This document shows, one piece after another, positions 13,981 through 64,000 of a stretch of DNA of 64,000 bases. Each line of letters starts with the position of its first letter. Positions within the stretch are counted from its first letter, which is position 1. A model generated the notes under the pieces. It was not told the origin of the DNA, did not search any database, and saw only the letters and a program-made list of their open reading frames with translations. This DNA comes from Tetrahymena elliotti 4EA (taxonomy: Eukaryota; Ciliophora; Oligohymenophorea; Hymenostomatida; Tetrahymenidae), in NCBI GenBank assembly GCA_000231825.2, contig JH720364.1, forward strand, positions 186,060-250,059, in the 5' to 3' direction. The translations under genes were made by a program, and so were the position numbers.

Positions 13981-14027
<47 letters not shown>

Positions 14028-27831: not shown

Positions 27832-30800
27832 ATGAAATTTTAAATAATAAATTAATTTTTAAAGAAGGAAACTGTCTGTCTAAAAAAATATTTTTTTTAT
27901 TGTTATTTTAATTACAAAAAGTTAAGAATCTAATCGGAATCTAGTGGAGTGTAATTTTGAATGCACATGCACTATCTCAAATACTTGTACAGGATGTGTA
28001 AAATCCAATTATATTTACTATCATGATACAAATGACTGCTATACAACTAGTTATTGTTCTACAACTTATGATTCTTAATATACTTTAGACTCAATTAATA
28101 AAACATGTTGCATAAATTATTGTTAAACTTTTAAAAATAATAATAATGGTAATTAAATGTGCTTAACCTATAAAAATGGGTATTATTTACCTTATCCAGG
28201 AGCTAGTGAATGCCTCAAAACTTGCAGTTCAAGTACTTGTTTGATTTGTTCAACAGGTAAATATTTATACTAAAATAATAGTTGTGAAGCTTGTCCTCCT
28301 GATAGCTATTATATTAGTGGGAATAGTTGTATAAAGTGCCACTCTTCTTGTAAGTCTTGCAATGGTACTTAAAATAATAATTGTTTATCTTGCACATCAG
28401 GAGCTTATTTATATCCTAACAATACATGTTAAACTAATTGTGTTGATGGATATTTTAAGATTGGAAATAACTGCCAATAATGTAATTCAAGCTGCTTAAC
28501 TTGTAATGGTTTATTATAAAATAATTGCCTCTCATGTCCTGCCGGTTAATATTTATTTTAAGATAATACTTGCTCAGCTACATGTAATGCTAATAATAAA
28601 TTTTATGTTAGTGGAACTAACTGTTTATAATGCAACTCAAGTTATTTGACATGTAATGGATCTTCATCAAATAGCTGCCTCTCATGCCCATCTGGTTAAT
28701 ATTTATTCTAAAATAATATTTTTTAAGTTAGCTGTAATACTAATAATGGGTATTATATTAGCGGATCTAATTGTTTGAAATGTGATCCTAGCTGTTTAAC
28801 ATGTAATGGCTCTTCATTAACTAGCTACCTCTCATGCCAATCAGGTTAATATCTATTTTAAGATAATACTTGTTCAGCTACTTGCAATATTAATAATCGA
28901 TTCTATCTTAATGGAAATAATTGCATGTCTTGCAATTCAAGTTGTTTAACCTGTAATGGTTCCTCTTATAATAATTGCCTTTCATGTTCTACTGGTTAGT
29001 ATTTATTTGAGGATAATACTTGTTCAGTTGCATGTGATGTGAATAATACATTTTATATTAGTGGAACTAATTGTCTATAATGCAACCCAAGTTGTTTAAC
29101 TGCAATGGCTCTTCATCAGATAACTGCCTCTCCTGTCCTACTGGTTTATATTTATTTTAAAATCAAAGTTGTACAGCATTTTGTGATATTAACAATGGAT
29201 TTTATGTAGATGGAGCTAACTGTTTAAAATGTGATTCTAGTTGCAAAACTTGTAATGGACCTTAAAAATCTAACTGTCTTTCATGTTAATCAGGTTAATT
29301 TTTATTTGAAAATTTTACTTGTTCTTCAATATGCAATACTAACGGGTATTATATAAATGGAAATAGTTGCAATAAATGCGACTCTAGATGCTTAACTTGT
29401 AGTGGCTCTTAATAGAATAATTGTCTTTCTTGTTACTCAAGTGAATATTTATTTTAGAATAATACTTGTTCTTCAACATGTGATATAAACAATGGTTTTT
29501 ATATTAGCGGAACCTCTTGTTTATAATGTAATTCTAGTTGTTTAACTTGTAATGGGCCTTTATAAAACAATTGCCTTTCTTGTCATACATCAGATTATTT
29601 ATTTTAAAGCAATACATGCAAACCAACATGCTAAATTAACAATGGTTATTATTTGAACAATAAATGCTGCCTTCTTTGTGATTAATCATGTAAAACATGT
29701 AATGGGTCAAGTATTAATAATTGTTTATCATGCAACTAAGGATAATTTTTGTATTTTGATTAATCATGTAAACCTAACTGTAACACAAGCTTTGGGAAAT
29801 ATATACAAGGAAGTAATTGCCTTGATTGTGATTCTTCATGTCAATCTTGTTATGACAATTTACCAACAAATTGTCTAACTTGTTTTTCTGGAAACTATTT
29901 ATATGCAGATAATTCTTGTAAACCTTGTCATACATATGATGGTTATTTTATTAACTTAAATATGTGTACTTAATGTAACAAATCATGTAAAACATGTAAT
30001 GGACCACAATTAAGCTAATGTTTAACTTGTTGGCCTGGTCTCTACCTTTATCCTGATAATTCTTGTTAAACTTGTAATACAAGTTTTCAAAAATATCTAG
30101 ACCCTTAGTTAGTTTGCAGAAATTGTGATCCTTCTTGCTTAACATGTGATGGCCCAAATTTTAATTAATGCTTGACTTGCCCAACTGGAAAAAATATGTT
30201 TGCAGATAAAAGCTGTTAAATATGTAATACCTAAAATAAATACTATTTAGATAATCAAAATATTTGTAGAAAATGTGATTCAACATGCTTAACATTGGAA
30301 TTTCTCTGTACCCTGATAACAGCTGTTAAGTTTGTAATATTTCTAATTAGCAATACTTAGACTCTTAAAATATTTGTAGATCTTGTGATATTTCTTGTTT
30401 AACATGCAAAGGTGCTTCTCCTACTTAATGCTTAACATGTTTAATTGGAAATAACTTATTTCCAAATAACAGCTGTAAATATTGTGATGTAAATCAAAAA
30501 TATTATTTGGATAGTAGATAAATTTGTCAATCTTTTGATCCAAGCTGCTTAACATGTAATGGTTAGACTCCTTAATCATGCCTAAGTTGCCCTTCTGATT
30601 TTAACTTATATCCAGATAGCAGTTGCTAAATATGTGATACAAATAATAAATAATATTTAGATATCAATAATGTATGTAGGTCATGTGATCAGACATGCTA
30701 AACTTGCAATAATCAATCTCCCTAATCTTGTCTTAGCTGTCCAGAAGGAACTTTCTTATATCCTGACCAAAGCTGTAAAGCATGTGATTTAGAAAATAAA

Positions 30801-32265
30801 TAATATTTAGATAACAAATTAATTTGTCAATTATGTGACCTTTCTTGTTAGATATGTAATGATAAATCAGCAAATTCATGTTTAACTTGTCCATAAGGAA
30901 CTAATTTTTATCCAGACAACTCTTGTAAATATTGTGACACCATGAATAGCTATATTTGGATAGTTCGAATATTTGTTAATAATGTGCTTCTCTTTGTTAA
31001 ACTTGTAATGGCCCTACTTCAAATTCTTGTCTAAGCTGCTTACCTTAAGTTAATGGTAAATTAATATATATTTATTTTTTTTAAGCTTTTCTAAATTTAA
31101 AATGAAATAAAATCTCAAAGATTAAAACCAATTTCAATTTGAAAGAAGGTCGTAAACCTTTTTCTGAAAAAATAAATCCTAAGTTTTTTGATTAGATTAA
31201 AATGTTAAGTCTTCGCTAAACTTTTATAGATTTGAATTACTTTATCATTACAGATATAGTAATAATTTTATTAGTGGTCTGTAAGTTGCTAAGTAAAAAG
31301 TATCATTCATTAAGTGAAATTGAAGAGAAAAAGTTTTCTTATTTCATTAAATTGTAGCTTTTATTCTCAAATTACATTCTCATATCAATTTTTAAGGCTT
31401 TTAAATAAATCGAATTTTCAACAACAATAAGCATAATTAGCTTTACTCTTTAAATACTCTATTTAGTAGCATATGGTATATTTTTAATTATCTTCTATTT
31501 TTAGATAAAAAAATTTGATAGAAAATAAAATATGAATCTAATAAATAAATACTATGTCTTGATAGATAATGTAAATATTGACATACCTTATGGAAAATAT
31601 TTTTGGTTGTTATTTGAAATAAGAAAAGTACTAAATATAGCTATTGTTTTTGTAATACCTTAATTATTAATCTCTCTGATCCTAATCGTTAGTTTTAATT
31701 TATTATTTTTTTCTTACATGCTTTATTTCAAGCCAATCATGGCTATAAATGAATAAAGATACTATTTTTTTTTAGAATTCTTACAAATATTGATTAACTT
31801 CAATATTATTCTTTTGCATTGCTGTAATGATATCAGGATAGCATGGTCTACAGTAATTTCTATTGGGTTACTGATTTTAACTATTCTGGTATATTCGATA
31901 TATATTACATATATATTCTTAAAAATTAAATACTGCAAAAAAAGATTTAGAGTATCTAAGAATCAATATTATGAAGAGAATATTAGATAGAAGCAAATTT
32001 AGTCTACATATAATAAAAATTAAATGATAATTAAAATAAGAGCTGGGATATTAAATCCAATAAATAAATCATAAAATCTATCATCTATCACAGAGTAAGA
32101 ATTTAGAAATTAATTAAATTTTAACTTATTTTTATCAAAATGTAAAATAGAAGTGGTTCAAGGATAGAGTATATGGACAGTAGTATACACTAACTCTCTA
32201 TAAAATGGAATAAAAATCCAATCTATATAAGAAACCTGGCTCTTAGCACTTACAAAAAATTGTGA
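27832..32265 (+). pseudogene. Copy 1 of the Cys-rich repeat / multi-pass membrane family, decayed
   Basis: A leader-like frame from ATG 27832 (hydrophobic segment FFIVILITKSQE) is out of phase with the Cys-rich part across a run of eight T at 27891-27898. The cap (CNFECTCTISNTC) and about 20 furin-like repeat units follow to about 31055. They are broken by a one-base loss near 29100 (CLT-CNG unit), a short deletion with frame change near 30290 and another frame change near 30950. Several cysteines are also lost. The Cys-rich linker present in copies 2 and 3 before the membrane domain is missing. The membrane domain restarts near 31202 with a deletion that fuses TFIDLNY to the first membrane helix. 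From there it is open: five or six hydrophobic segments with IPYGKYFWLLFEIRK, an intron 32095-32150, and the conserved last exon (IKWNKNPIYIRN) to TGA 32263-32265. The pattern is of a once complete gene now decaying. Some single-base shifts could be assembly errors, but the deletions cannot. Confidence 0.8.
28200..31055 (+). repeat. Furin/GFR-like Cys-repeat array of copy 1
   Basis: Units of about 150 bp (about 50 residues, 8 Cys) repeat across this interval. The type in the first part reads FYISGTNCLQCNSSCLTCNG; the last part shifts to the type YLDNQNICRKCDSTCLT. Frame breaks occur near 29100, 30290 and 30950. Confidence 0.85.
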
Positions 32266-33952: not shown

Positions 33953-36900
33953 ATGAATAGGATATTTCAATTTTCAAGAGAATATAAACTTTTTAATTCC
34001 TTTTATATAAAAAATTATTTTATATTATTTCTGTTATCTAAAATAACTAGTAAATAAAGAATGAGAAATTTAGCAATTTGTAATTATGCTTGCTACTGTA
34101 CTGTTTCCTATACTTGCTAAAGTTGTATAAATTATTATGATGTCTATTATGCTGATCTTGATAGTTGTGATAATTTATATTACTGTAATTCAATTTATGG
34201 TAATTATTAATTAGATTCAACTAATAAAGCATGTTGTATTAACTATTGTAAAACTTGTAAAAGTAATGGAAAAGGTGATTAGGCTTGTTTTACTTGTGTA
34301 TTAGGGTATTATTTACCTTATCCAGATGCTAATTAATGCATTAAGACTTGTAGTAGTACTACTTGCTTGAATTGCAATACAGGATAATATTTATATTAAA
34401 ACAACACTTGCTAATCTACTTGTCCTTCAAGCGGATATTATATCAATGGAAATAATTGCATAAAATGTCACTCTTCTTGCCTTACATGTAATGGCTAACA
34501 AAATAATAATTGTTTATCTTGTCCAAACGGCTATTATTTTAATGGAAATAGCTGCTTATAATGTAATTCTAATTGCTTAACTTGCAATGGTTCTTTATCA
34601 ACTAACTGCCTTACTTGTCCTTAGGGTTAATATCTATTTTAGAACAGTTCATGCTAAATTACTTGTAATACTAGCAATGGATATTATATTAATGGTACAA
34701 ACTGCTTACTATGTAATTCAAGCTGTTTAACTTGTAGTGGCCCTTTATCAAATAATTGCCTTTCATGTCCTTTAGGATAATATTTATTAGCCTACAATAT
34801 ATGTACTGCAAATTGTAATATCAGTAACGGATTTTATATTAATGGATCTAGTTGTTTGTAGTGTAATTAGAGTTGCTTAACTTGCAATGGCTCTTTATCA
34901 ACGAACTGTCTTTCATGTCCTTAAAATTATTACTTATTTCAAGATAATAGTTGTTCAGCAACTTGTGATATAAATAATGGTTTTTATATTAGTGGAACTA
35001 ATTGTCTAAAATGTAATCCTAGTTGCTTGACTTGTAATGGTCCCTTAAAAAATAATTGCCTTACATGCCTTATAGGATAATATTTATTTTAGAATAACAC
35101 TTGCTCAGCTATATGTAATATCAACAGTGGATTTTATATTAGTGGTTCTAATTGTTTGCTCTGCAATTAAAGTTGTTAAACTTGTAATGGCTCTTTATCA
35201 ACTAATTGCCTTTCATGCTATTCTGAAAATTATCTATTTTAAAATAATACCTGTTAAGCTTTGTGTAATATTAATAATGGGTTTTATATTGATGGAAATA
35301 ATTGTTTATAATGTAATTCAAGTTGCTTAACATGTAATGGTCCTTTTTTAAATAACTGTCTGTCTTGTCCTTTAAATTTTTATTTATTTTAAGATAATAC
35401 ATGCAAATCTACTTGTAATGTTAATAATGGATATTTTGTAAGCAATAATTATTGCCTTCTTTGTGATTCTTCTTGCTTAACCTGTACAGGATAATCTCCA
35501 AATAACTGCTCTTCCTGTCGCTCTGGATAATTTTTATATGCAGATAACTCTTGTAAATCAACCTGTAATGTAAGTTAAGGATATTTTATTCAAGGTATAA
35601 ATTGTCTTGCTTGTAATTCTTCTTGTTTATCTTGCTCTGGATTGTTATCTACAAACTGCACAGCATGTTTTTTTGGAAATTATTTATATGCAGATAATTC
35701 TTGTAAGCCATGTAATGTAAGTAATAGCTTTTTTATTAGCTAAGAGAAGTGTATTTAATGCTCTTCATCTTGCCTAACATGTTCAGGAGCACTTCCAACT
35801 TAATGCCTTGCGTGTAAGCAAGGTCTTTATCTTTATCCAGATAATTCTTGTTCAGTATGCAACATAAGTAATTAATAGTTTTTAGACTCATAAAATATTT
35901 GCAGAAATTGTGATCCATCTTGTTAAACATGTAATGGACATAATCCTAATTAGTGTTATAGTTGTCAAGTAGGAAAAAATTTTTTCCCAGATAATACCTG
36001 TTAAACTTGCGATATTTAAAATAAATAGTATTTAGATAATAAAAATATCTGTAGGTCATGTGATTCAACATGTTTAAAATGCAATGGACCATTATCTACT
36101 TCTTGTACTAGTTGCCCAAATGGAACTTACCTATTTCCTGATAATAGTTGCAAACTTTGTAATATAAACTACTAATTTTATTTAGATCCATAAAATATTT
36201 GCAGATCTTGTGATTCATCTTGCTTGACCTGCTCTGGTCCTTCTCCCACATAATGCTTAACTTGCCTTGATGGAAATAACTTATTTCCAGATAATAGTTG
36301 TAAATTGTGTAATATAAATAACAATTATTTTTTAGATAATTAAAAAATTTGTAGATCTTGTGATCCTAGTTGTTTATCATGTAGCAGCTCAACTCCATAA
36401 TCATGCATAAGCTGTCCTAAAAATTTTAATTTATATCCTGATAATAGTTGTAGAGTATGTGATTTAACAAACAAGTAATATTTGGATAGCTAAGGTATTT
36501 GTAGATCTTGTAATTATACCTGCTAAAAATGTAATAGTTCTTTACCTACATCTTGCTTAAGCTGCCCTTAAGGAACTTTTTTATATCCAGATTCAAGTTG
36601 TAAAATGTGTGATGTTTCAAGTAAATAATATTTAGATAATCAATTAGTTTGCAGATAATGTGATCCTTCTTGCTAGACTTGCGATGGGTAATCAGCAACT
36701 TCATGTTTGACTTGTCCATTTGGAACTTATTTATATCCTGATCATAGTTGTAAATTTTGTGATACAGCTAATTAGCATTACCTAGATAGCTAAAATATAT
36801 GCTAAAAATGTGATTCGTCTTGTTAATCTTGTAATGGTCCCACTTAAAATTCTTGCTTGACTTGCCCTTAAAGTAAACTTGAATAATTAATCTATTAAAA

Positions 36901-39900
36901 TTTTTAAAATATTTTTAGAAGCTAAGTTATTGTATTTAAGATAAAAAATGAATTAATCAAAACAAAAATTTTTTTTTTGAAAAATAATTAAAAATTTAAT
37001 TAAAATTTTTTAATTTGAGTTTTTTTTTTGCTGTTTTTTGATAAAAATTTTAGTTAATATCAATCATAATATTTAAAAATTTTTAAAAAATAAAAAGGTA
37101 TTTAAATCTACTTATATCCAGATAATTCTTGCAAAGCTTGTGATACAACTAATAAATAATATTTAGATTCTGGAAAAATATGTAGATAATGTGATCAATC
37201 ATGCTAAACTTGTAATGGTTCATCTTCTAATTCTTGTTTAACATGTCCTGTAGGAAATTTTATTTATCCAGACTTCAGTTGCAGAATATGCAATACTGGA
37301 AATTAACAATTTTTAGATTAGTAGAATATTTGCTAGCAATGTCATTCTTCATGTTTAACTTGTAATGGTTAGTCTTCAGATTAATGCTTAAGTTGCCATT
37401 CAGGAAAAAGTTTATATCCTAATAATAGCTGTTAAGTTTGTTAAACAAGCAATCAATATTTTTTAGATTAATCCAATATTTGTAGATAATGTGATTCATC
37501 TTGCTTAACTTGTTATGGTTAATTACCTAGCGAATGCTTAAGTTGTCCTATTGGCAAAAGTTTATATCCTGATAATAGTTGCAATATTTGTAATTTAAAC
37601 TTTAAATAATTTTTAGACTCTTAGTAAATTTGTAGGTCTTGCCACCCATCATGCTTAACATGCAATGGTGCTACTGCTAGTGAATGCTCTAGCTGTCCAA
37701 TAGGAACAAATTTATTTCAAGATAATACTTGCCAAATATGCAACACAGCAAATTAGTTTTATATTGACTAAAACTCTCTTTGTAAACCATGTGACGCAAC
37801 TTGTAAAACTTGTAATGGATCTTTATAAACTTAATGTTAATCTTGTCCTCTAGGTAAATATTTATATCCAGATAATAGCTGCTAAGAATGTAATACTAAA
37901 AACCTTTAATATTTGGATCAAAATAATATATGTAGATCTTGTCATCAGACATGCTAAACTTGTAATGGATCTTAATTAAATTAATGCTTAACATGCCCTG
38001 TTGGATCTAATTTATATCCTGATTTCAGCTGTAAAGGATGTAATACAAATAATTAGCAATTTTTAGACAGAAATCAAGTTTGCAGAAATTGCCATTCATC
38101 ATGCTAAACATGTAATGGAGAACTTTAAACCTAATGTTTGAGTTGCCCCACAGGAAAATATTTATATCCTAATAATACTTGCTAATTTTGTGATACAAAT
38201 AAAAAATAATATCTTGATTCTAATTAAATTTGTAGATCTTGTCATTCTTCTTGTTTAACTTGCTCAGGATAAACTGAATAAGATTGCTTAAGCTGTATCT
38301 AAGGATTTAATTTATATCCATAAAATATTTGTAAGTACTGCGATACTAACAACTAATAATATTTAGACTCATCATAAATTTGTAGATCTTGTGATGTCTC
38401 TTGCTAAACATGCAATGGATTTTAACAGAACTAATGCTTAACTTGCCCAGAAGGAAAAAACTTATATGAAGATTTTACATGCAAAATCTGTGATATTAAT
38501 AGTATGCACTATTTAGACTAGTTGAATGTATGTAGAAGATGTGATGTTTCTTGCTTGACCTGTAAAGGATCTACTCCATAATCTTGTTTAACTTGTCCTC
38601 TAGGTAAATTTGTTAAAAGAAATCAGAATAATTTTCCAAAATCAATTTATGTTAATTCAAAAAACTAATTTATTGTGCTATTGCCAAAAAATCATAAAAA
38701 TTATTAATTTTTGATTTATTTTTATTAGTGAATATTAATAAAGATTACTTTTGTATCTTTAAATTAAAAAATTTAAATAGAATTTAATTATTAATTTAAA
38801 AAATCTAATAGGTACCAATTTTTTTGATGATAATTCATGCAAATTTTGTGACATAAATAATAAATTCTATTTAGACTAATCATAGATTTGTAGAAAATGT
38901 GACCCTTCTTGCTAAACTTGTAATGGCCCATCTAAAAATTAATGTCTTACTTGCGCTATTGGTACTTACCTTTATCCAGATAACTCCTGCTAAATATGTT
39001 AAATAAATAATAGATAGTATTTAGATAATACTAAAATTTGCAGATAATGTGATCTCTCATGTTTAACCTGTACAGATTCTTCACCAACTTCTTGTATAAC
39101 ATGTCCCTCAAATTATTCACTTTATTCAGATTAAAGTTGTAAAATTTGTGACATGAACCAATCATATTATTTAGATTCAAATAACATTTGTAGATAATGT
39201 CATAGCTCATGTTTAACATGTTATGGACCTTTGAACACTGAATGCTTAAGTTGCCCAATAGGACAAAATCTATTTCCTAATAATTCTTGTAATTATTGCA
39301 ATACTTCTAATTAGCAGTTTATTGACTCGAATTAAATATGTTAAAATTGTCATTTCAGTTGTTAAGAATGTAATGGACCCAATAAAACAGATTGTTTAAC
39401 TTGTGTTATTGGCAAATATTTTTAACCAGATAAAACTTGTAGTATTTGTGATATTAATAATAAATTTTATCTTGATCAAAATAAAATTTGTTAGCCATGT
39501 CATAATTCTTGTTTAGCATGTAATGGACCGAGTATAAACTCTTGTTTAGCATGCTAATAAGGAAAAATTCTTTACTATGATAATTCATGCTCTATTAAAT
39601 GCGATTTGTAAAATAAATTTTTTTTAGATGACTAAAAAGTTTGCTAAAAATGCTCAAACAATTGTTAAACATGTAAAGGGCATTTGGCTACTGACTGTTT
39701 GTTATGTGTATAAGGAATGATAAAATTTCAAGATTAGTCATGCAACATCTGCGATAAAAATGAAGGATAGTTTATTGATAGTAATTAAATATGTTAAAAT
39801 TGTGATGCGTCTTGTTTGACTTGTAATGGATAAATGCATACTAATTGTACTTCTTGTAGATAGGGATTAAGTTTGTATCCTGATAGTTCATGTTAATTTT

Positions 39901-42425
39901 GTGATTTAGACAATTAAAAATATTTGGATAAGTCTAATATTTGTAAATAATGTGATAAAACATGTTAAAAATGTAGTGGATTTTAAAAAGACTAATGCAT
40001 ATAATGTATTTAAGGATTAACATTATACCCTGATAGCACATGCTAAGTTTGCAATGAAAGTAATAGATAGTTCATAGATAAAAATAAAATTTGTTAGTAA
40101 TGTCATGATTCATGCTAAAAATGTAATGGACCCTCAAATTTAGATTGTACTTAATGTACACAAGGTTTGAGTTTTTAAAGTGAAAACATATGTAGTATTT
40201 GTAATATTTAAAATGGGTATTTTATAGATGAAAATAATAACTGTAAAAAATGTGATAAGAATTGTAAAATTTGTAACTCTTCTTAGTAATGCAAAATCTG
40301 TGAACTAGATTTTATTTTGTTTAATGGAATGTGCTTTAACTGTAAATCAGGGACTTATTTTGGTAAATTTTTTTCTTTTTATTAAAGTATATTTATCTTT
40401 TTAATTTTAAATTAAATAACAAAAGACCCTGTTTCTGTAAGCTGTAAAAATTGTAGCTAAAAATGTAAGACTTGCTTTGGTGGTCTTTAAACATAATGTA
40501 GATTGTGTGCTAACCCTGATTAATTTTTTGACTAAAACAATTATTGCGTTGACTCTTGTTAAGAAGGATATATTAGAAATCAAACATCAAACAAATGTTA
40601 GAAATGTTTTTATTATTAAACTTCTCAAGAAAAATAGATTTGTGTTACAAAGTGCCCTGATTAATTTTATAATGATTCAAATAATATTTGCAAAAAATGT
40701 GGAGATAACTGCAAATCTTGCATTAACTCTGAAATATGTATAGAATGTAACTAAAATTATAGTTTTAGGAATAAAACTTAAAATGAGTGCACTATTTGTT
40801 AGTCAGATGAGTACCAAGATGAAAATAACATATGTTAAAAATGTAAAATAGCTAATTGTATAGAGTGTTCAAATCAAAATATATGCTTTTAATGCAAAGT
40901 AGGATATATTTAAAGATAAGCATATTGTGAATATGATAAGAGATATGATCATTATACTTGTTCATATTCAACTTAGAAAGAATGCTAAGAAGAATTAAAT
41001 TTAATAACAAAGGTCGATACAAGCATGTAGTCAGTTCAAATCGCATCTTTTAGTCTCCAAACTTTAAATACTTTTTTTTTTGCATAAGGAAGTCAATTTG
41101 CTTACTCTTTGTAAATATAGCAAATAATAGGTAATACTAAATTTTCTGATGAAATTAAAACATTAAGTATAACCTCAACTTTTATTGATTTAAATTACTA
41201 AATGAATATTATTAGTATCATTCCTAGACCATTATTTAATGGAATTTCTTAAAATTAAACCTCAACAGAAGGCTTGTTAAAAATTTAGAGAATGTTAGAA
41301 AATGCTTCTTCAAGCGATTTAAGAAAAATACAATCTTTTGATTTAAGCAGACTGTTTTTATTTGATACATCAAATTATTTCATTATAAACATAATATTTA
41401 TAACATTTTTAGCTATTTGTAAATTATTAAGTTAAAGATTTGTCTCTTTTTGTAAAATTGAAGAGAATAAGTATTCACTATTAATTAAGCTACAGCTTTT
41501 GTTCTCAAATTATCTTCTGATATCAATTTTTAAAGCCATATAGTAAATAGATTTTACAACAACACTTTAAAAAATAAGTTTTGCTTTTTAGATACTCTAC
41601 TTGATATGCTACTTATTATTTTTAATATTCTTCTTTTACTAAATAAAGAATTTTGATAGAAAATTAAATGCTGATTCAATAAATAAATATCGCACTTTAA
41701 TTTATAATGTAAATATTGAGATACCTTTTGGAAAATACTTTTGGTTCTTCTTTGAAGTAAGAAAAATATTAAATATAATATTTATTTTTACGATTCCCTC
41801 AGTAGTTATTTCTATGACACTCGTGATGTCGTTGAATTTTATTTTTTTCGTTTATATGCTATACTTTTAGCCAATAATTGTTAAAAACGAACTGAGATAT
41901 TATTATGTTTTAGAATTCTTACAACTAGCTGTGAATCTAAATATAATTTTATTATATAATTTTAATGATTTTATAATAGCATGGTCTACAATAATTAGTA
42001 TGGGAATGCTAAATTTAACAATCTTATTATATTCAGTATACATATCCTACAAAATATTAAGGATCAAATTTTGTAAATCAAAATTTATAGTATCTGATAA
42101 AGAATATTCTGAAGAAGATATGAGATCAAAACAAATTAAATCTATAATTGATAAAACTAAGATGAGAATTAAAGTGAAACCATTTATCTTAAATTAAGAT
42201 AGCTTATAAAATATGTCTTAGATTATTGCGTAAATTTTTTAATTATATTGTTCATTCTTATATTTAATTTTTATTAACAATAACAGTAATTCAAGAGCTG
42301 AAAATATGGAAAATCTTCATTAAATTTCTATTAAATGGAATAGAAATCCACTATATCTGAGGAATATATCATTAAATTTTGAGAAATAATAATGTGTTAA
42401 ATAAAATTAAAATTTAATTTCCTGA
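33953..42425 (+). CDS. Copy 2: giant Cys-rich repeat protein with multi-pass C-terminal domain
   Basis: Five exons: 33953-36872, 37098-38603, 38812-40362, 40426-42229 and 42287-42425, all GT-AG with matching phases (1,1,1,2). Total 7920 nt, about 2639 residues, with TGA 42423-42425. The N-terminus has a hydrophobic leader (NYFILFLLSKITS), then a Cys cap (CNYACYCTVSYTCQSC). About 37 units of about 50 residues follow, pattern C-x2-SC-x2-CNG...CL-x-CP-x-G...L-x-PDNSC-x2-CD...YLD...IC. They match furin/growth-factor-receptor Cys-rich repeats. After exon 3 comes a different Cys linker (CPDQFYNDSNNICKKC) ending near CEYDKRYDHYTC, a non-Cys ectodomain (TFIDLNYQMNIISIIP), then about six membrane segments including NYFIINIIFITFLAICKLLS and a conserved loop IPFGKYFWFFFEVRK. 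The last exon encodes ISIKWNRNPLYLRN. It is predicted to sit at the cell surface or in secretory membranes as a receptor or adhesion protein; ligand and role are unknown. Confidence 0.9.
34350..40362 (+). repeat. Furin/GFR-like Cys-repeat array of copy 2
   Basis: Tandem units of about 150 bp, interrupted by introns at 36873-37097 and 38604-38811. The first block uses the unit type FYINGSSCLQCNQSCLTCNG. From about 35.8 kb the unit type changes to YLDSQNICRSCDSSCLTC. Each unit carries eight Cys in fixed spacing. Confidence 0.9.
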
Positions 42426-45400: not shown

Positions 45401-45775
45401 TATTTATTAAATTTATTCAATCTATCTATTCCAATTAATAATACTAATATTTTAACTTAGAAGTAAATTTTTTCCAGAAAAAGGATTAAATTTAATATTA
45501 TTAAAAAATTAATAAATTAAATCATTTACTATTTGATCTTTTATTCTAATATTTATTTAATTAATGAATAAATATTTCAAATAAACAGATAAATATTATT
45601 TTTCATTTTATTAATCCACTCTAAATTGACTAAATTGTGCTATTGTGAGATTTCATATAAATTCATAATTTTTTATCTCTAAAATAAAAAAAAATCTCAA
45701 AAAACTTTTTTAGAACTCATTAGAACTGTGCATCACTCGCACATCATACAAATATTACTAATATTATTACTAAAA
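42426..45775. other. Long intergenic region between array copies 2 and 3
   Basis: About 3.3 kb of AT-rich, homopolymer-rich DNA. I see no repeat-unit remnant, membrane-domain remnant or other gene in it. Confidence 0.5.
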
Positions 45776-48700: not shown

Positions 48701-51700
48701 CCTTAAATACAAATTTACATCCTGATAGTAGTTGTTAATTTTGTGATATCTCTAATAAATTTTATTTAGATCACACTAATATATGTAGACCTTGCGATAT
48801 GACTTGCTAAACATGTAATAATTCTGCACCTACATCTTGCTTAAGCTGCCCATTAGGGACATTTTTATATCCAGATTCTAGTTGCAAAACATGTGATACA
48901 GCAAATAAATAATATTTAGATGGCCAACAAGTTTGTAGATAATGTGATCCTACTTGCCAAACTTGTAATGGATAATCTGCAACTTCGTGTTTAACTTGTC
49001 CATCAGGAACTAATTTATATCCTGATAATAGTTGTAAAGTTTGTGATATTTCAAATAAATAGTATTTAGACAACTCAAATGTATGCTAAAAATGTGATTT
49101 GACTTGCCAAACTTGTAATGGTCCTACTTAAAATTCTTGCTTAACTTGCTCCTCTTAAAATTCAGGTAATTTAAAATTTTCAGTTTCAGTAAATAAAAAA
49201 TAACTTTGATTTTTTTTATTTTAATAATTAAATGTTACAATTTATTAACATTTGTCTTACATCCCTTATCACACCACCTCTCCTATCTTTGATAAATCTA
49301 AATATTAAAATGGGGCAACAACCCAAAATTTGAGGGAGATAAACTTTATTTAAATAAAAAAAATAATTTAAAAAAGAAATATTTCTTTAATTAAGAGTAA
49401 AATTAATTTTAAATTACATCAATTCAATTTTTATTGAGTAATATTAATATTAATTAATTAGCCCAATATTTAACAAAAACTCTTAAAAAAATATTTTAAT
49501 TACTTTTTTATTAACTTAAAAGGTCTTTAACTTTATTTATATCCAGACTTTTCTTGTAAAACTTGCGATACAACAAATAAGTAATATTTAGATTCCGGTA
49601 ATATTTGTAGGTCATGTGATTAATCTTGCTTAACATGTAATGGTTCATCATCTACTTAGTGTCTTACTTGTCTATCAGGAACATATTTATATCCTGACTT
49701 TAGCTGTAAAAGTTGTAATACTTAAAATTAACAATATATAGACCAGTAAAATATTTGTTAGTAATGCCATCCTTCATGTTTAAAATGCAATGGCTCATCA
49801 TCAAAATAATGTTTAGCTTGCTTGCCAGGAACAAATTTATATCCAGATAATAGTTGTTAGGTTTGCTAAACAAATAACTAATAATATTTAGATTCATCAA
49901 ATATATGTAGGTAATGTGATATATCTTGTTTAACTTGTAGTGGATAATTACCAAATTAATGCTTAAGCTGTCCTTCAGGAAAAAGTTTATATCCTGATAA
50001 TAGTTGCTCAGTTTGTGATTTAAGTAATAAATAATATTTAGACTCTTCATCAATTTGTAGATCATGCCATAGCTCATGTTAAACATGCAGTGGATCTAGT
50101 AATAATTAATGTACTAGTTGTCCTGTTGGAACAAATTTATTTGAAGATAATACTTGTGAAATATGTAATATAAATAATTAATTTTATATTGACTAAAACT
50201 CTATTTGCAAGCCTTGTAATGCTTCCTGTTAAACTTGTAATGGATCTTAATCTACATAATGTTTATCATGTCCCATAGGAAAAAATTTATATCCAGACAA
50301 TAGTTGCTAAGTATGTAATACAAATAACCTTTAATATTTAGATTAAAATAATGTATGTAGATCTTGCCACTAAACATGCAAAACATGTAATGGGCCCTCT
50401 ATAAATTAATGCTTAACATGCCCAGTAGGATCTAATTTATATCCTGATAATAGTTGTAATGGCTGTAACACAAATAATTAGTAGTACTTGGATATTAACC
50501 AAATTTGTAGAAATTGTCATTCAACTTGTCAAACTTGTAATGGAAACTTAGCAACCTAATGCTTGAGTTGTCCCTTAGGGAAAAATTTATATCCAGATAG
50601 CAGTTGTCAATTTTGTGATATAAATAATAAGTAATACTTGGACACTAATTAAATTTGTAGATAGTGTCATTCTTCATGTTAAACTTGTTCTGGGTCAACA
50701 AATTAAGAGTGCTTAAATTGTATTTAAGGATTCAATCTATACCCAGACAATAGTTGTAAGGTTTGTGATACCAATAACTAACAATATTTAGACTAAAATT
50801 AAATATGCAGATCATGTCATAGCTCCTGTTAGACTTGTAATGGATCTTCATAGAATTAGTGCTTAAGTTGCCCTTAAGGCAAAAACATATACCCAGATTT
50901 TTCATGTAATATATGTAACACTAACAATAAGTAATATCTTGACTAAACAAATGTATGCAGAAGCTGTGATACTTCTTGTTTAACTTGTAATGGATCAACT
51001 TCATAATCATGTTTAAGCTGCCCACAAGGTAAAACAATAAATTTTTCAATATATTTTTAAAAATACCTTCCTTTTTTCAGATCTAAATAATAAAAAAAAT
51101 TTTCAAAATTTCTTAGTGAAATTATCTTAATCCAAAAAATTTTTTTTATCTCTAAAAATAAAAAAAATTAACAAATGAGGAGCTAGGTTGTTCTTAAATT
51201 AAATTAAAAATAGCTTTAAATAATAAACTTTGATCTTTTTTAAAATTTAATATTATTTTAATTTAATCCAAATAATGTAAAATTATATTAGGTACTAATT
51301 TGTTTCCAGATAACTCTTGCAAATTTTGCGATATTGCGAATCAAAACTATTTAGACTCATAACAAGTTTGTAGAGCATGTGATTCTAGTTGCTAAACTTG
51401 TAATGGCCCATCTAAATATTAATGTCTTTCTTGCTCCAATGGAACTAATCTATACCCAGATAACTCTTGCTAAATATGTTAAACAAATAACAAATAATTT
51501 CTAGATAATTCTAATATCTGTAGATAGTGTGATACTTCTTGTTTGACCTGTAATGGTTCTTCTTCTACTTCCTGTATAACATGTCCTTCAAATATTTCAA
51601 TATATCCAGATTAAAGCTGTAAATTTTGTGATATTAGCTAATAGCATTATTTAGATTCTAATAGTATTTGTAGATAATGTCACAGTACTTGCTTAACTTG

Positions 51701-54700
51701 TTCTGGATCTCAGAGTACTTAATGTTTAAGCTGTCCTATTGGATAAAATATTTTTCCAAATTATTCTTGCAATTTTTGCAATACTTCTAATAAATAGTAT
51801 ATAGATTAAAATTAAGTATGTTAAGATTGTGATATTAGCTGTCTAACATGTAAAGGACCTAGCAATACAGATTGCTTAACTTGTGCTTTAGGAAAATATT
51901 TTTATCCTGATTAAACTTGTAGAGTTTGTGATACCAATAATAAATTGTATCTTGATGGCAATTTAATATGTTAGTAATGTGATATTTCATGCTAAACTTG
52001 TAATGGACCTAGTAAAAACTCTTGCTTAGCATGTCCATAAGGAAATGCCCTCTTTCCAGATAACTCTTGCTAATTTTGTGATATTTCTAATTAATATTAT
52101 TTAGATTCTAAAAACGTTTGCTAGAAATGTGATAACAGTTGTCAAACTTGTTCTGGTCCAACAAATAAATAATGTTTAAGCTGCCCAGCTAATAATTATT
52201 TATTTCCTGATAATTCTTGTAATATATGCAATACTTCAAATAAGTATTTTATAGATTCAAATTAAATTTGCTAAAAGTGCGATAATTCATGCCTTACTTG
52301 TAATGGATTACTCAAAACCAATTGCCTTTCATGTTAAGATGGTTTTTATTTAGATGCAAATAAAAGATGCCAGGCTTGTGATTCGACATGTTTAACTTGC
52401 AGTGGCTCAGGTAAAAATCAATGTTTAACATGTCCGAGTGGGTAAAATATTTTTTATGATAAATCTTGTAATATTTGTGATACAAGCAAAAAATATTTTA
52501 TTGATAGTCAAAATATTTGTTAGTAATGCCATTCTTCATGCTTAACTTGTAATGGTTAGCTTTAAAATAATTGCTTATCTTGCTAAAATGGATTTTACTT
52601 GGATTCTCTGAACCAATGTAAACCATGTGATTCTTCTTGCTCAACATGTAATGGTCCAAACCCATAATAATGCTTAACTTGCAAACAAGGATTTAATTTT
52701 TATCCAGATTAATTATGTAAGTATTGTGATCAAACAAATAAATTTTACTTAGATAGCTAAAATATATGCTAATAATGCTCAACTAATTGCCAAACTTGCA
52801 AAGGACCTTAAGCTACTGATTGTATAAATTGTATAGCTGGAATGACAAAATTTTTAGATTAAACATGTAATATCTGCAATGTAAGTAATGGATAGTTCAT
52901 AGACACAAATAAAATATGTTAGAATTGTGACACTTCTTGTGTAACTTGTAAAGGCTTAACATCTACCAGTTGTAATTCTTGTATATAAGGGCTAAGCCTA
53001 TATCCTAATAACTCATGCTAAGTATGTGATCTAAATAATCAGTAATTTTTAGATAGTTCTAATATTTGTAGATAATGTGATCAAACTTGCAAAAAGTGCA
53101 CTGGTTCTTAAAAAAATTAATGTATCTCTTGCATTTAAGGATTAACAATGTATCCTGACAATTCTTGCTAAATTTGTGATGAGAATAATAAAAAATTCAT
53201 AGACACAAATAACATTTGCTAGCAATGCCATAATTCCTGCTAAAAATGTAGTGGACCTTCAAATAAAAATTGTACTCAATGTGCTTAGGGTTTGAGCTTC
53301 TTCAATGATAAAACTTGTCAAGTTTGTTAAATTTAAAATGGATTCTATGTTGATAAAGATAATAATTGTAAAAACTGTGATTAAAATTGTTCTATTTGCA
53401 CGTCAACTTAATAATGTAAGAAGTGCGAACCTAATTTCACTTTGGTCAATGGTATGTGTTTTAATTGCAAACCAGGGACTTATGTTGGTAATTATTTAAA
53501 ATTTTTTATTTAACCCCAGCTTAACATTTTTCAATTAAATATTTATAGATCCAGTCACTATGAGTTGTTAAAATTGCAGTCAAAAATGTAAAACATGCTT
53601 TGGAGGACAAGAAACTTAGTGTACTTAATGTGCTAATCTAAATTAATTTTTTGATCAAAATAATTATTGTGTTGATGCTTGTCAAATAGGTTATATTAGA
53701 AATTCAGCAACAAATAAATGTTAGAAATGCTATTACTACATAAATAACCAATAAAAATCTATTTGTGTTGTTGAATGTCCTGATTAATATTATGCTGATT
53801 CAAATTATATTTGTTAGAGATGTGGAAATAACTGCAAACATTGTATAAACTCAGAGATATGTACTGAATGCAATCAAAACTATAGCTTTATGAGCGAAAC
53901 TTAAAAGAAATGTACAATTTGTTCATCAGATGAGTATAAAGATGAAAACAATGTTTGTTAAAAATGTAAAATAACAAATTGTCAAACATGCTTAAGTAAG
54001 AGTATTTGCTAAACTTGTGCAATAGGATATTTCAACAAATAAACTTATTGTGAATACGATAAGAGATATGATGACTATACTTGCTCCTATTAAACTAAAG
54101 AATAGTGTGATAAAGAATTAGAATTAATTACAAAAGCTGATACTAGCATGCAATCAATCCAGGTAGCATCATTTAGTGTTTAAATAACAAATACTATTTT
54201 ATTTGCATAGGGAAGTTAATTTGCTTATTCACTTTAAATTCAGTAAATGATAGGAAATACTAAATTTTCTGAGTAGCTTAAGACACTAAGCATAAGTAAA
54301 ACGTTTATAGATATAAACTACTAAATGAATATTCTTAGCATTATTCCTAATCCTTTTACAAGCTAAAACTCACAAAATTAGAGTAAATCTTAAAACTTAT
54401 TATAGAGTTAGAGGATCTTAGAACAAAATGCTTCTTCTAGTGATTTTAGAGATATTTAATCTATTGATCCAAGTAGCATATTTTTAAATGATATATAAAT
54501 TTATCTTATAATAACTGGTATTGCAATAATCATTTTAGCTATTATTAGTATGCTCAGTAAAAAGTATACTTGGTTTAGCCAAATTGAAGAGAAAAAATAT
54601 TCATATATAATAAAGTTACAACTTTTATTCTCGAATTACATTTTAATTTCAATTTTTAAAGCTTTTAAGACATAAGACTTTTCTACAACTATTCAATTAG

Positions 54701-55521
54701 TAAGCTTTGCTGTTTAAATATTATATTTGATATGTTATGGCATATTTTTGCTATTTTTCTATTTCAAAATAAAAAAATTTAATAGAAAATCTAATGTGAA
54801 TGAAATAGTTAAATACTATGTTTTAATAGACAATATTGATATTGATATACCTTATGGAAAATACTTTTGGTTTTTTTTTGAAATAAGAAAAGTAATAAAT
54901 GTAATATTGATTTTTACAATACCTTCTATTATTATCTCAATGATGTTAGCAATGTCTTTAAATTTGATATTTTTCATTTATATGCTTTGGAAAAAACCAA
55001 TTATTTCTGCCAGTGAATAGAGATATTATTGTGTATTAGAATTCTTGTAATTAGCAATTTATTTGAATATTATTCTTTTAAGTAGATTTAATCATGTTGT
55101 TATTGCATGGTCTGCAGTAATTTGTATGGGATTATTAACTTCTGTTATCTTTTTATATGCGATCTATGTCTTATATAATTTATTGAAGATTAAGTTCTGC
55201 AAAAAAAGATTTATAGTATCAAAATGCCACTATTATGAAGAAGACATCAGATAAAAAAGAATGTAGTCAATAATTGATAAAAGTTAATTGAGAATTTAAG
55301 TAAGATAAGGAATTTTTAATAATGCTGAAAACCAATTAAATTACACCATAAGCTCAGAGTAAAAATTTAATTAAGATTAAAATACTTATTATTTTTTTTA
55401 AATAATTAGGAATGGTTCAAGGATAGAGTATAGGGATAATATTCATGAACTTTCTATTAAATGGAATAAAAATCCAATATATACAAGAAATATTGCACTG
55501 AGTTCTTATAAAAATTAGTGA
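45776..55521 (+). CDS. Copy 3: giant Cys-rich repeat protein with multi-pass C-terminal domain
   Basis: Exons 45776-49165, 49523-51028, 51292-53487, 53549-55358 and 55410-55521; TGA 55519-55521. About 3000 residues, including a gap of unknown bases at 46322-46907. ATG 45776 opens a signal-peptide-like leader (MFLLNNKIILIYFAS), but the Cys cap (CNANCNCTFFGCDSC) is one base out of phase, the offset falling at a T run near 45868-45873. From the cap on, all exons are open and phases agree, apart from the gap, whose length is not a multiple of three. About 46 Cys units follow, then the same linker, membrane domain (IPYGKYFWFFFEIRK) and last exon (SIKWNKNPIYTRN) as copy 2. Exon 2 has exactly the length of copy 2's exon 2. 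The early units (CNTSSGFYIS type) are the most alike in the window, a sign of recent expansion. Function as for copy 2. Confidence 0.85.
45920..53487 (+). repeat. Furin/GFR-like Cys-repeat array of copy 3
   Basis: Tandem units of about 150 bp with eight Cys. The first units on both sides of the assembly gap are nearly identical to each other (PSGNYLFSNNSC, NTSSGFYISG). The type YLDNSNICRSCD takes over from about 48.1 kb. Confidence 0.9.
46322..46907. other. Assembly gap (586 N)
   Basis: An unbroken run of N inside exon 1 of copy 3. Both flanks are near-identical repeat units, so the gap most likely marks unresolved tandem repeats. The true length is unknown. Frames on the two sides differ by one base, as expected if 586 is only an estimate. 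Confidence 0.98.
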
Positions 55522-58500: not shown

Positions 58501-58599
58501 ATGTAGAAAGGTAAATTTTTTATACAAGCTTATTAATATATTAACAGAAAGATAAATGATTGTTATTAACACTTATTAAATTTTTAAAAATATAAAAGA
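55522..58599. other. Intergenic region between array copies 3 and 4
   Basis: About 3.1 kb of AT-rich DNA. A short frame at about 58430-58510 ending in a GTAAAT donor-like site (reading NYFKCSSIRSVHNEVDVE) might be an upstream exon of copy 4, but nothing confirms it. The rest shows no gene. Confidence 0.4.
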
Positions 58600-61500
58600 A
58601 TGAATATTTTTTCTAAAATTTTAAATTATTTTACAAATATTTATTCCCTTTTAAAAAATAATAATTTTAGCTCAAATTAAAAATTAAAGAGATCTCTTTA
58701 ATCATGTGGAAAATGGTGTAAATGTTAAGGTGTTAAGGTTTCTATCTGCTCTTCTTGTTCTTATCCATCAACTGATATATATTTTCCTGATAAAAAATAA
58801 TGTGATTATGCTACTAACTGTAAACAACCAGAATACACAAGAAATGGGGATGTATGCTGTCCTAATTATTGTAAGTCTTGTGCTAGGAGTTAAGACACTT
58901 ATATCTGTAATGAATGCTAGGATGGTTATTTTTTAACTCCTCCAAATACATGTACTAAATGTGATTCCAACTGTAAATCATGTTCTGGATCTTCTAAAAA
59001 CTGTACTGTATGCCCTACAAATTAATATCTTTATCCAGACAATACTTGTGGGATCTGTGATATAAATTAAAAATAGTATATAGATTCATCTTAGGTTTGT
59101 TAATAATGCCACTCTTCTTGTTAAAAATGTAATGGTAAATCCAGTTAATAATGTCTATCTTGTCCTTCAGGAACTAACTTATACCCAGATAATTCTTGTA
59201 AAATTTGTGATATAAGTAATGGTTAATTTTTAGATAGTAAACAAATTTGTTAAGATTGCGATAAATCTTGTAAAACTTGTAATGGAATCTCATATGACAA
59301 ATGCTTAACATGCCCTTCAGGAACCAACTTATATCCTAATAATAGCTGTTAGATATGTGATATAAAAAATAAATAATTTTTAGATACAAATAATATTTGT
59401 TAGTAATGCCATCTTACATGCTAAACATGTTTCGGAACTCAAATAACATCTTGTTCAACATGCCCTCCGAATGCAAATCTTTTTCCAGATAAATCTTGTA
59501 AATTTTGTGATACTAATAATAAAAAATTTTTAGATTCAAGCTAAATGTGCTAGGACTGTAATTCATCCTGTTAAACTTGTAAAGGACCTTTATTTATTGA
59601 CTGTTTAACTTGCCCTTTAGGAACAAATCTCTATCCAGATGGTTCATGTAATGCCTGTTTAACATAAAATAAGTAATATTTAGATGGTTAATAAATTTGC
59701 AGAGATTGCAATTCTACGTGTTAAACATGTAATGGATCATCTTCTAATTAATGTATCACTTGTCCTAGTGGCTCTTATCTTTATCCAGATAATTCTTGTA
59801 GAAAGACATGTGATATAAATAATTAAATGTTTTTAGATTCTTAAAATGTGTGTTAAGAATGTGATAAAACATGTTAAACCTGCACTGATAAAACAAAAAA
59901 TTCTTGTAAGACTTGCCCTAATGGAGCTAATTTATTTCCTGATAACTCTTGTTAATTTTGTGATATCAGTAATAAAAAATATTTAGAAATTGATAAGGTT
60001 TGTAGGGATTGCCATTCTTCTTGTTAAACTTGCTCTGGTCCAAAAATAACAGAATGCAAAACTTGTCCTTCAAACACTAATCTTTATCCAGATAACACAT
60101 GTTAAAAATGTGATTTGTAAAATTAGCAGTACTTAGATAGTACTTCAGTTTGTTAAAATTGTGATAAATCTTGTAAAACTTGTAATGGACCAAAAGAATT
60201 TAATTGTTTGACTTGTCCAGATGGGACTAATTTGTATCCAGATAATACTTGTAAATAATGCAATGTTTATGATAAGTAGTATTTGGATTCCTCATCAATT
60301 TGTTAAAATTGCCATAGCACTTGCTAGACTTGTAATGGATCAACTTAAAATTCATGTTTAACTTGTATTTCTGACTTAAGCATTTATCCTGATGGCTCAT
60401 GTAAAAAATGTGATATAGCGAATAAATAGTATTTAGATGAAAATTAAGTATGTAGGTAATGTAGCTAGTCTTGTTTAACTTGCAGTGGCAGTTTAGATAC
60501 TTAGTGTTTATCATGTGTACCTGGTACAAATATCTATCCAGATAAATCTTGTAAAAAATGTGATATTTTGAATAAACAATTTCTGGATTAGAATTCTATT
60601 TGCTAAAACTGTGACTAATCTTGTTAAACTTGTGATGGAACAAAAAGTAACTAATGCTTAACTTGTCCAATTGCCAAAAACTTGTACCCTAATAAATCTT
60701 GTAATACTTGTAACATTAATAATAAATAGTTTATAGATGCCTCATAAATTTGTTAATCTTGTGATGATTCTTGTTTAACCTGTAATGGATAAACTAAATA
60801 TGATTGCTAAATTTGTGATACAGACAAATATTTTTATCCTGATCGTTCTTGTTAGTTTTGTGATCTATTAAACAAATAATATTTAGATACCTTTATGGTT
60901 TGCTAATCTTGTCATTCTTCTTGCTAAACATGTGATGGTTCATCTAATAAATCTTGTTTAAGTTGCCCAAATGGTTTTTATATTTATCCTGACAAAACTT
61001 GTTAAATTTGTGATACTAAAAATAAAAAATTTATTGATAATAATTTTGTATGCTAATCTTGTCATTCAAGTTGTTAAACATGTAATGATTTTTCTTAAAA
61101 TTCATGTCTAAGTTGCCCTTAAGGAAAATATTTATTTCCAGATAATTCTTGTAATGATTGCAATATTTAAAATTAGTTTTTTATTGACAAATCATAAATT
61201 TGCTAAAAATGTGATACCTCATGCCTTACCTGCAATGGGAATCTAAGCATAAATTGTACCTCTTGTTAAAATGGATTTTTCTTAGATTAAAAAAAGTCTT
61301 GTTAACCTTGCCACTCTAGCTGTAGTACTTGTAATGGCTAAACAGAATTTGATTGTTTGAGCTGCGATATAGGAAAAAATATTTTCCCAAACCATTCATG
61401 TAGTTTTTGCAAAATAGACAACAAATTTTATATTGATGAAAATTTAATTTGTTAAGAATGTCATTCTTCTTGCTTAACATGCAGTGGAAATTTAGAAACA

Positions 61501-64000
61501 AACTGTTTAAGTTGCTCAGATGGTTTCTATTTAGATAGCTAAAAAAGGTGCTAGCCCTGCCATTCATCATGCAGTACGTGCAATGGTCCATTAAAAATAA
61601 ATTGCAAATAATGCAGAACAGGTTTTATATTTTATTCAGATCGTAGCTGTGATTTTTGTGACACTTTAAATAAATATTTTATAGATGAAAAAAATATTTG
61701 TTAGAAATGCCATGAAAATTGTTAAACTTGCTAAGGATCTTCAAATACTCAATGCATCAAATGCTTGAGTGGCATGAATTTTTTTCTTGATAATAGTTGT
61801 AATATCTGCGATACAATTAATGGATACTACATAGATAAAAATTAAATTTGTTAAAAATGCCATTATTCTTGTAAAACTTGCAGTGGATCTTTGAACACAG
61901 ACTGCTTAGTGTGCAAATAAGGTTTTTCAGTTTAACCAGATAAAACTTGTTAAGGTTGTGATATAGATAATAAGCATTATATTGATTCTTAAAACCTTTG
62001 TAAAAAATGTGATGATAGTTGTCAAACATGTAGTGGTCCATCTCCTTAATAGTGCTTATCTTGCTCATAAGGATTATCTTTATATCCAAATAATTCATGT
62101 AAAATTTGTGATTTAAATGATCAATAATATGTAGATTCTAACAATTTATGCCAAAGTTGCCACAGTTCTTGTAAAAAATGTCTTGGACCACTTACTACCT
62201 AATGTACTTAATGTAATTTAGGTTTAAGTTTTCAAATAGATAACACTTGCTAATCATGCTCTATTTTTAATGGTTTATTTGTAGATCCTAATAATTATTG
62301 TTTAAATTGTAGCTCTAAATGCTAATAATGCTCAGGCCCAGATAAAAATTAGTGTATTAGTTGTAAGTCAGGATACTCTCTTTTTCCAGATCAATCATAT
62401 GATGTTTGTAACATCCAAAATGGCTACTTTATAGATAACAAAAATAACTGTGTAAAATGTCATGATTCTTGTAATAAGTGCACTTCAGAAATGGAAAATA
62501 ACTGCACAGAGTGTAAATAAGGTTTAAGTTTTCACTCAGATAACACTTGCAAGGTGTGTGATGTAAAAAACAGGAAATATATAGATTCAAAAAACATATG
62601 CTAGCTTTGTCATTCTACTTGTTAAACATGCAGTGACTCTTCATTTAATTCATGCTTTAGCTGTTAGGAGCCTAGATAATTATTTAGTAATTTTTACATT
62701 TACAATTGATTGAATAAAATATATTTTTTTTTATTTAACTTTTCCCAAAAAAATAAAAACCCTTCACAATTTAATTTTTGAGTCCTTAGTTTTAATTAAA
62801 AATTTTCCATAAATTTAAAATCAAATATTTCTTTAAATAAATTAACAGATGGAGTTTGTAATAAATGTCATTCTTCTTGCTCATTATGTAAAGGAGAAAC
62901 AGATTAAGATTGTTCAAAATGTTAACCAGGGCTTTTCTTTTTACCTAATGGGAAATGTGGGTCATGCCCAGATGTTGGATTTTATAAATTTGAAGATTAA
63001 TGTATTTAATGTGATTCTTCTTGTTCTACTTGCACTGGATCAACAAAATATGATTGCATAAGCTGTTTATATCCTTATTCTTACTTTGATTCTAGTCATT
63101 AATGCTAAAAATGTCATATTGATTGTGAATCATGTTCTGGTAGTGAAAAAAATTAATGTTTAAAATGTTTAAACAAAAATTTTTTTATTTCTCTTTCAAA
63201 TTAAAATTGTGAGAAATGCTAAGAAAATGAATTCAATGATGGAATTAAATGTATTAAATGCCAAGATAACTGTTAAAAGTGTTCTTCTATTGATACTTGT
63301 GATAAATGTATAAATGGGTATTTCTACAAAAATAATACATGCAATTAGTGCGATCAAAACTGTTTAGCATGTTCTGATCATCTAAAATGTGATACATGTC
63401 TCTAAAACTACACTTTTTATGATGGAATTTGCTTCAAATGCTAAGAAAATTAATATTTTGGTAATTTTGAGTTTTTAATTTTCTTTGAGATAATTTAAAT
63501 AGCACTTCAATTTATAAAATATTAACTTTAATCTTTTGAAAATTAGATAAGTAAAATAAATCATGTGAAATGTGTCATTCTAAATGTAAGTCATGCATTG
63601 ATTAATCAGAAACAAATTGTATTGAATGTGCAAATCCAAAAGAATTTTTTGATCAGGATAACTATTGTGTAGATAAATGCAAGGAAGGATATATTAAAAA
63701 TCCAAAAATCAATAAATGCCAGAAATGTATTTAATTTAAAAAGGATAAAAATAATCTTGAATGCATTTTAGAATGTCCTTCACACTATTTTGTTAATAAA
63801 TCTAATATTTGTTAATATTGTGGACCTAACTGCTTAAAATGCTAGGATCAAGATAGTTGTTTGCAATGTGACAAAGGATTCAGCTTTTAAAGTACTTCTT
63901 AAAAAGTTTGCACTAAATGTAAAGTTAATGAATATATAGATGAAAACAACACTTGTCAAAAATGTTTAATATAAAATTGTGAAGTTTGCTAAAGCAAAGA
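58600..64000 (+). CDS. Copy 4: giant Cys-rich repeat protein, 3' part outside window
   Basis: Exons 58600-62686, 62849-63460 and 63547 to the right edge, where the frame is still open; GT-AG introns of 162 and 86 nt, both phase 1. ATG 58600 opens MNIFSKILNYFTNIYSLLK, a weak leader, so an upstream exon with a better signal peptide is possible. The cap differs from the other copies (CGKWCKCQGVKVSICSSC). It is followed by about 25 units of the YLDxxxICQxCHSSCQTCNG type. One conserved Cys is lost to Tyr (DQSYDVC, near 62395). Exon 2 carries more divergent Cys units (KCQDNCQKCSSIDTC). Exon 3 matches the linker of copies 2 and 3 (NPKEFFDQDNYCVDKC, CGPNCLKC), so the membrane domain should follow beyond 64000. 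No frameshift or TGA is seen in about 1700 codons, so this copy looks intact. Confidence 0.88.
58960..62686 (+). repeat. Furin/GFR-like Cys-repeat array of copy 4
   Basis: About 25 uninterrupted units of about 150 bp in one exon, without an internal intron, unlike copies 2 and 3. Units are of the YLD/YID type throughout. The GTNLYPDNSC phrase is common in the first half, more divergent forms in the second. Confidence 0.9.

Follow-up and report, generated by a model that had tools for sequence, protein, structure and literature searches.

What kind of protein is encoded by a head-to-tail array of giant cysteine-rich (Cys-rich) genes on contig JH720364.1 of Tetrahymena elliotti 4EA, and where does the membrane domain that closes these genes belong? 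The array lies in a 64,000-nt window (the whole stretch of DNA analysed here, drawn from a 90-Mb assembly of 134 contigs), and coordinates are positions within this window unless another contig is named. The original prediction described four plus-strand genes of one architecture, each opening with a leader and closing with a multi-pass domain that could not be placed in any family. We find that the array is real, yet it does not consist of four equal genes: three copies (copies 2, 3 and 4) are apparently intact and one (copy 1) is decayed. On balance we lean towards reading the products as tandem paralogous surface proteins, in which Cys-rich rods are mounted on a divergent TRP-like membrane unit and act as sensors.

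Under the standard code the window holds only six stop-to-stop frames of at least 150 residues, each at or across a run of N; when TAA and TAG are read as Gln long frames emerge, showing that the ciliate code is in use. The GC content is 16-31% per 2-kb step. Genes were modelled with a purpose-written gene finder (GT-AG introns, ciliate code, codon scores) together with frame-by-frame reading, and the exon ends given below are predicted from DNA alone. Close protein relatives, 43-65% identical, occur in Tetrahymena utriculariae and T. malaccensis.

All four copies lie head-to-tail on the plus strand, and their common order runs from a Cys cap through an array of 50-residue units with eight Cys (8-Cys units), a Cys linker of ~168 residues, a Cys-poor stretch and a multi-pass membrane part to a short last exon carrying the motif SIKWN.NP. 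The predicted likeness in orientation, order, units, linker and last exon stands, but only copies 2-4 are whole, and the membrane part of copy 4 lies outside the window, within the next 1.5 kb of the contig. In copy 2 the Cys cap and 40 units occupy 34061-40362 (predicted exons 34061-36872, 37122-38603 and 38812-40362, the first unsure), followed by the linker of ~168 residues (40426-40931), the Cys-poor stretch and membrane part (40932-42197, 422 residues modelled) and the last exon (~42294-42425). Copy 3, which is broken by a 586-base run of N, has several predicted exons for its leader, Cys cap and a minimum of 44 units (45201-53487, run of N inside), then the linker, Cys-poor stretch and membrane part (53549-55323, the last two at 54055-55323) and a last exon at ~55420-55521. 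In copy 4 the Cys cap, the 30 units and the beginning of the linker extend from 58600 to 64000 (58600-62686, 62849-63460 and 63547 onward), with the end of the linker, the membrane part and the last exon on the same strand of the adjoining contig stretch (L001, to about its base 1526). Ahead of the last exon the copies read without an internal stop for 2,539 residues (copy 2), at least 2,723 residues (copy 3, run of N excluded) and 2,157 residues (copy 4). A leader, proposed for every copy, is convincing for copy 3 only; in copies 1, 2 and 4 the first exon is provisional.

The units are strikingly regular. A relaxed 8-Cys pattern finds 40 units in copy 2, 44 in copy 3 and 30 in copy 4, and a stricter pattern 37, 41 and 27. 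Successive strict units start exactly 50 residues apart in 30 of 36 intervals in copy 2, 27 of 40 in copy 3 and 17 of 26 in copy 4, a regularity far above chance, and the periods detected by TRF across the array region are mostly 150 bases. Unit pieces from copies 2 and 4 match the Pfam models VSP (4.2e-31 and 1.7e-37) and GF_recep_IV (7.6e-14 and 2.4e-11) over cut-off, and by these curated repeat models the units are classed as growth-factor-receptor (GFR)/furin-like Cys-rich repeats.

Copy 1 departs from this plan. With copies 2 and 3 as tblastn queries, its Cys-rich part (27935-30953, 16 recognisable units) is recovered in three pieces in three frames (27935-29101, 29101-30294 and 30294-30953; frame 2 to ~29101, frame 1 to ~30294, frame 3 to ~30953). 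Past ~30953 there are ~35 more unit-like residues in frame 2, a gap, and then the membrane part, also in frame 2 (31196-32059), so placed that it directly follows the Cys-rich part; the last exon lies at ~32161-32265. Some 1,300 residues (~940-2250 of copy 2) are missing: the later half of the unit array, the Cys linker and the greater part of the Cys-poor stretch. A search with the linker matched copies 2, 3 and 4 with no match in copy 1. Several Cys positions of its units are altered. The membrane part is still constrained (dN, non-synonymous divergence, 0.25-0.26 and dS, synonymous divergence, 0.94-1.17 against copies 3 and 2), a constraint that belongs in part to the other branch of each comparison. 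Copy 1 is probably a pseudogene, a duplicate whose decay would be recent, in keeping with this constraint, although base errors are possible.

The membrane part is not confined to the cluster. With copy 2 as the query it was found in seven places (the four cluster copies and single places on contigs C29, C5 and C36), and a distant member on contig C16 gave 27 matches, some being pieces of one place: seven on the minus strand of C2 within 110 kb, four on its plus strand within 57 kb, and others on C16, C29, C1, C20, C96 and C36, with copy 4 the sole cluster member matched (E 2.8e-11). The matches on C2 form further groups at 1587140-1696383 (minus, seven matches) and 1968772-2025978 (plus, four matches). 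Cys-rich sequence is clear directly upstream at L008, L009, L010, L036, L042 and L045, and also at L058 and L059 among twelve small regions, the rest of which are cut too close or are unclear. In the 27-row alignment of the family (A2), residues Y227, E275 and K278 (copy 2 numbering) are kept in all rows, and Q61, Q64, N68, N92, F270 and P314 in at least 90% of rows. Protein searches returned Tetrahymena matches only (4 of 6,524, 4 of 7,344 and 0 of 2,964 candidates), by a method that depends on shared words and misses distant kin; the relatives bear labels such as 'hypothetical protein' and 'transmembrane protein, putative'.

A model of the copy 2 membrane part built with AlphaFold2 (AF2) from the 27 sequences (pLDDT 77.1, pTM 0.76) contains seven helices of membrane length (residues 138-167, 180-204, 211-239, 267-287, 291-312, 318-344 and 347-380), preceded by helices 15-50 and 54-72. 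By hydropathy the helices beginning at 138 and 211 (27 of 27 rows each), 291 and 318 (26 of 27 each) and 347 (18 of 19) are clear, and those at 15 (12 of 25), 180 (12 of 27) and 267 (6 of 27) are weaker. The earlier count of about six membrane segments is thus a fair one, lying between five clear by hydropathy and the seven, plus an N-terminal helix, of the model. Mean net charge is +1.3 in loop 168-179, +0.8 in loop 313-317 and +5.1 in the tail, against -0.9 in loop 73-137 and only +0.1 in loop 240-266. Because of these charges, and with the Cys-rich part placed outside (the rods are probably extracellular), the model suggests seven crossings with the tail inside, the first helix forming a hairpin or lying flat.

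Searches of Pfam and NCBIfam with the membrane part gave no credible family, and to that extent the original prediction of an unplaceable domain was borne out; comparisons of structure and of profiles nevertheless point to remote kin. The best Foldseek match of the model in BFVD is a protein of Megaviridae that bears the name 'Transient receptor potential ion channel' (TM-score 0.56, 390 columns, E 3.9e-5, probability 1.00), followed by two more Megaviridae proteins (E 2.2e-3 and 0.15), with noise beginning at 0.84. The TRP-like family PF06011 includes fission yeast Pkd2 and fungal Flc, and its usual partner in fungi is an ML-like domain. A search of the genome with PF06011 gave 20 loci at E <=10, one of them over cut-off. 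Eight of these served as a comparison set; each has a TRP match in Pfam (E 1.3e-10 to 7.2e-5), which in four of the eight is over cut-off. Compared with these eight, the profile of the 27-member alignment scored 88.6% (P 2.7e-6), or 77.6% when restricted to helices 4-8 and 66.4% when locus L070 was left out, as against 0.1-0.4% for ten reversed or column-shuffled controls and 0.0-0.1% for five tiles of the neighbouring ABC transporter. At L070 (C21:591900-593700), Cys-rich sequence lies closely upstream of the PF06011 match (29.3 / 26.1 bits). This locus is a possible bridge between the membrane family and the PF06011 family.

Several observations weigh against such a kinship. The best viral match has a root-mean-square deviation of 10.7 and an identity of 15%, and Foldseek against the PDB gave no usable match (best E 0.71). 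None of the 20 PF06011 loci is the cluster or any family locus recovered with the copy 2 and C16 queries, and PF06011 matches just one of the 27 members, at chance level (E 0.15) and short of its cut-off. The seven nearest members taken alone score 11.8-19.9% against the PF06011 loci, and of the PF06011 loci taken singly one scores 72.2%, another 50.9% and six of eight at most 5.2%. The cluster proteins also differ from this family in having no Pfam match of their own and in carrying a Cys-rich rod in place of the ML-like domain; a possible resemblance lies in the viral fold match and in the profile match over helices 4-8. Taken together, the sequence profiles and the model make remote kinship between the membrane part and the TRP-like PF06011 family likely, though not proved.

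How the array arose is addressed by a tree of 14 membrane parts, in which copy 4 pairs with T. utriculariae 005702 (support 100/99) and copies 1-3 cluster with T. utriculariae 005704 and T. malaccensis 006867 (98/96), the branching order among copies 1-3 not being firm (83/87). The line of copy 4 therefore predates the species split, and the proposal of a local family expanding by duplication is upheld in the form of whole-gene duplication. Identity to copy 2 over the membrane part is 59% for copy 1, 62% for copy 3 and 41% for copy 4. The repeat arrays of copies 2 and 3 are largely collinear: for units 8-40 of copy 2 the best copy 3 partner is in order in 30 of 33 cases, with an offset of four past unit 32, corresponding to one block of ~4 extra units in copy 3. 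Among the first seven units of copy 2, two match the same index in copy 3 and six are nearer to another unit of their own gene, as are six of the first seven of copy 3, a count in which some partners may be missing since the run of N of copy 3 sits in this outer part. Over all units, the match across genes (copy 2 versus 3) is better than that within the gene for 32 of 40 in copy 2 and 32 of 44 in copy 3. Between copies 2 and 3 dN is 0.45 over the outer 430 residues and 0.18 in the core, and dN/dS is well below 1 in each region compared, indicating purifying selection, with ratios that are rough because dS is high (0.9-1.6 for copies 2 and 3, 1.2-1.8 for copies 2 and 4). By these comparisons unit order is mostly fixed between copies 2 and 3, with the outer end (~7 units) changing faster. 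The suggestion that copies diversify by repeat number accordingly finds little in this pair beyond the one ~4-unit block; over the longer time that separates copy 4 it fares better, this copy having fewer units, of which only the last three are collinear with those of copies 2 or 3.

In the sensor reading that we favor, a rod built of eight-Cys units like those of furin and growth-factor receptors, 30-44 or more in number, would face outward, joined by the Cys linker and a hydrophobic juxtamembrane stretch to the helical membrane part, with the basic tail inside. The outer end would meet a partner (a cell, prey, matrix or ligand), the disulphide-rich rod would transmit the binding or pull to the membrane part, and the membrane part would admit or regulate calcium. 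Three described systems lead us to propose a sensor of contact or ligand whose readout is TRP-like. According to passages of PMC6564038, GFR Cys-rich ranks among the seven top domain classes of Tetrahymena genes that are species-specific; the likeness lies in Cys-rich units of the GFR type, carried by fast-changing genes of this kind, and those passages contain neither this membrane part nor its kinship. MTA, MTB and MRC1, proteins of mating recognition, are described as GFR proteins with five transmembrane helices in portions of PMC10901506 and PMC3608545. Fission-yeast Pkd2 is termed a mechanosensitive, TRP-like calcium channel in parts of PMC11277609 and PMC11333956.

Among the alternatives, a passive surface coat or adhesin, whose rods shield or stick and whose membrane part is a mere anchor, is unlikely but deserves some weight. 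The repeats match the Giardia VSP and growth-factor-receptor models, and Giardia VSPs likewise consist of CxxC-rich units, with VSP matches over cut-off here; VSPs have a single C-terminal transmembrane segment and a short conserved tail, whereas the cluster proteins have a multi-pass part and a long basic tail. Cys-rich coats are known in ciliates, namely the Tetrahymena Ser proteins, which according to the relevant passages of PMC4136848 share Cys-rich repeats on the cell surface but are glycosylphosphatidylinositol (GPI)-linked and not multi-pass. Against a mere anchor, the membrane part is under purifying selection and keeps charged and polar residues in or beside its helices (E275, K278, N68, Q61, Q64), beyond what a bare anchor needs.

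We consider it quite unlikely that these are mating-type-like recognition proteins (GFR plus multi-pass) that form one family with MTA, MTB and MRC1. Compared by description, both are large membrane proteins with a GFR/furin-like segment ahead of several transmembrane helices, and five helices are clear by hydropathy in the membrane family. However, MTA and MTB are depicted in the sections concerned as a head-to-head pair of smaller proteins (MTA 1,423-1,494 residues) with a furin-like segment of ~80 residues (PMC10901506, PMC3608545), whereas the present genes lie head to tail and carry 30-44 units. Whole-protein searches returned no MTA, MTB or MRC1, which carries little weight as shared words are needed, and the mat locus of this genome was absent among the matches of the linker search and of the membrane search with the C16 member. 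That the proteins are GPCR-like (G-protein-coupled) receptors, with seven helices, the N-terminus outside and the C-terminus inside, seems decidedly improbable. An assembly artefact, in which one locus was written repeatedly or contigs were misjoined, might be suspected because copy 3 contains a run of N and copy 1 shifts frame, but is hardly credible: the membrane parts of copies 1, 3 and 4 are only 59, 62 and 41% identical to that of copy 2 with dS ~1 and so are not one locus repeated, the open long exons of copies 2-4 argue that indel errors are not general, and misjoining, which the original prediction had named as what would undo it, is unlikely because the neighbourhood is similar in T. 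utriculariae, where the relatives of copy 4 (ABPG72_005702) and of copies 1-3 (ABPG72_005704) have near-adjacent tags and are both listed with a 444,766-base contig.

Copy 4 closes the array, and beyond it, on the opposite strand, lies a gene whose translation looks kinesin-like by eye. Farther on, in L002-L003 and beyond (~72200-84300 in extended window coordinates), two adjacent predicted genes that are alpha-kinase-like by eye have a long, near-identical C-terminal stretch in common. Elsewhere in the window are an ABCA-type ABC transporter (4127-8953, minus; ABC2_membrane_3 5.3e-59, ABC_tran 5.4e-55, R1_ABCA1 6.1e-13), a gene piece with a cyclic nucleotide-binding domain (12994-15651, minus; 1e-08) containing a TGT trinucleotide run (13977-14028), and a frame carrying a Macro domain (22192-23421, plus; 2e-11).

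Cys-rich rods and the expansion of GFR Cys-rich genes in Tetrahymena are already known in kind; in the literature searched we met no earlier TRP-like reading of the membrane part, and no account of how it is distributed across several arrays of a single genome or of turnover at the outer end. A repeat order that is mostly fixed, combined with a changing outer end, hints at where in the protein specificity would lie. A bolder and rather doubtful extension of the sensor reading is that these genes belong to a large unannotated ciliate superfamily of tethered TRP-like receptor-channels, expanded in many tandem arrays, with giant disulphide rods of GFR units mounted on a divergent PF06011-type membrane unit. 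Turnover would be limited to the outer ends, rod and channel remaining constant, and MTA, MTB and MRC1 may be specialised members; were it true, ciliates would convert the recognition of cell contact straight into calcium entry. A common membrane module of plausible TRP-like origin would offer relatives now labelled hypothetical or putative a function that can be tested, the entry of calcium in response to contact or pull, and it raises the question of whether the membrane half of the Tetrahymena mating-type proteins belongs to the same family.

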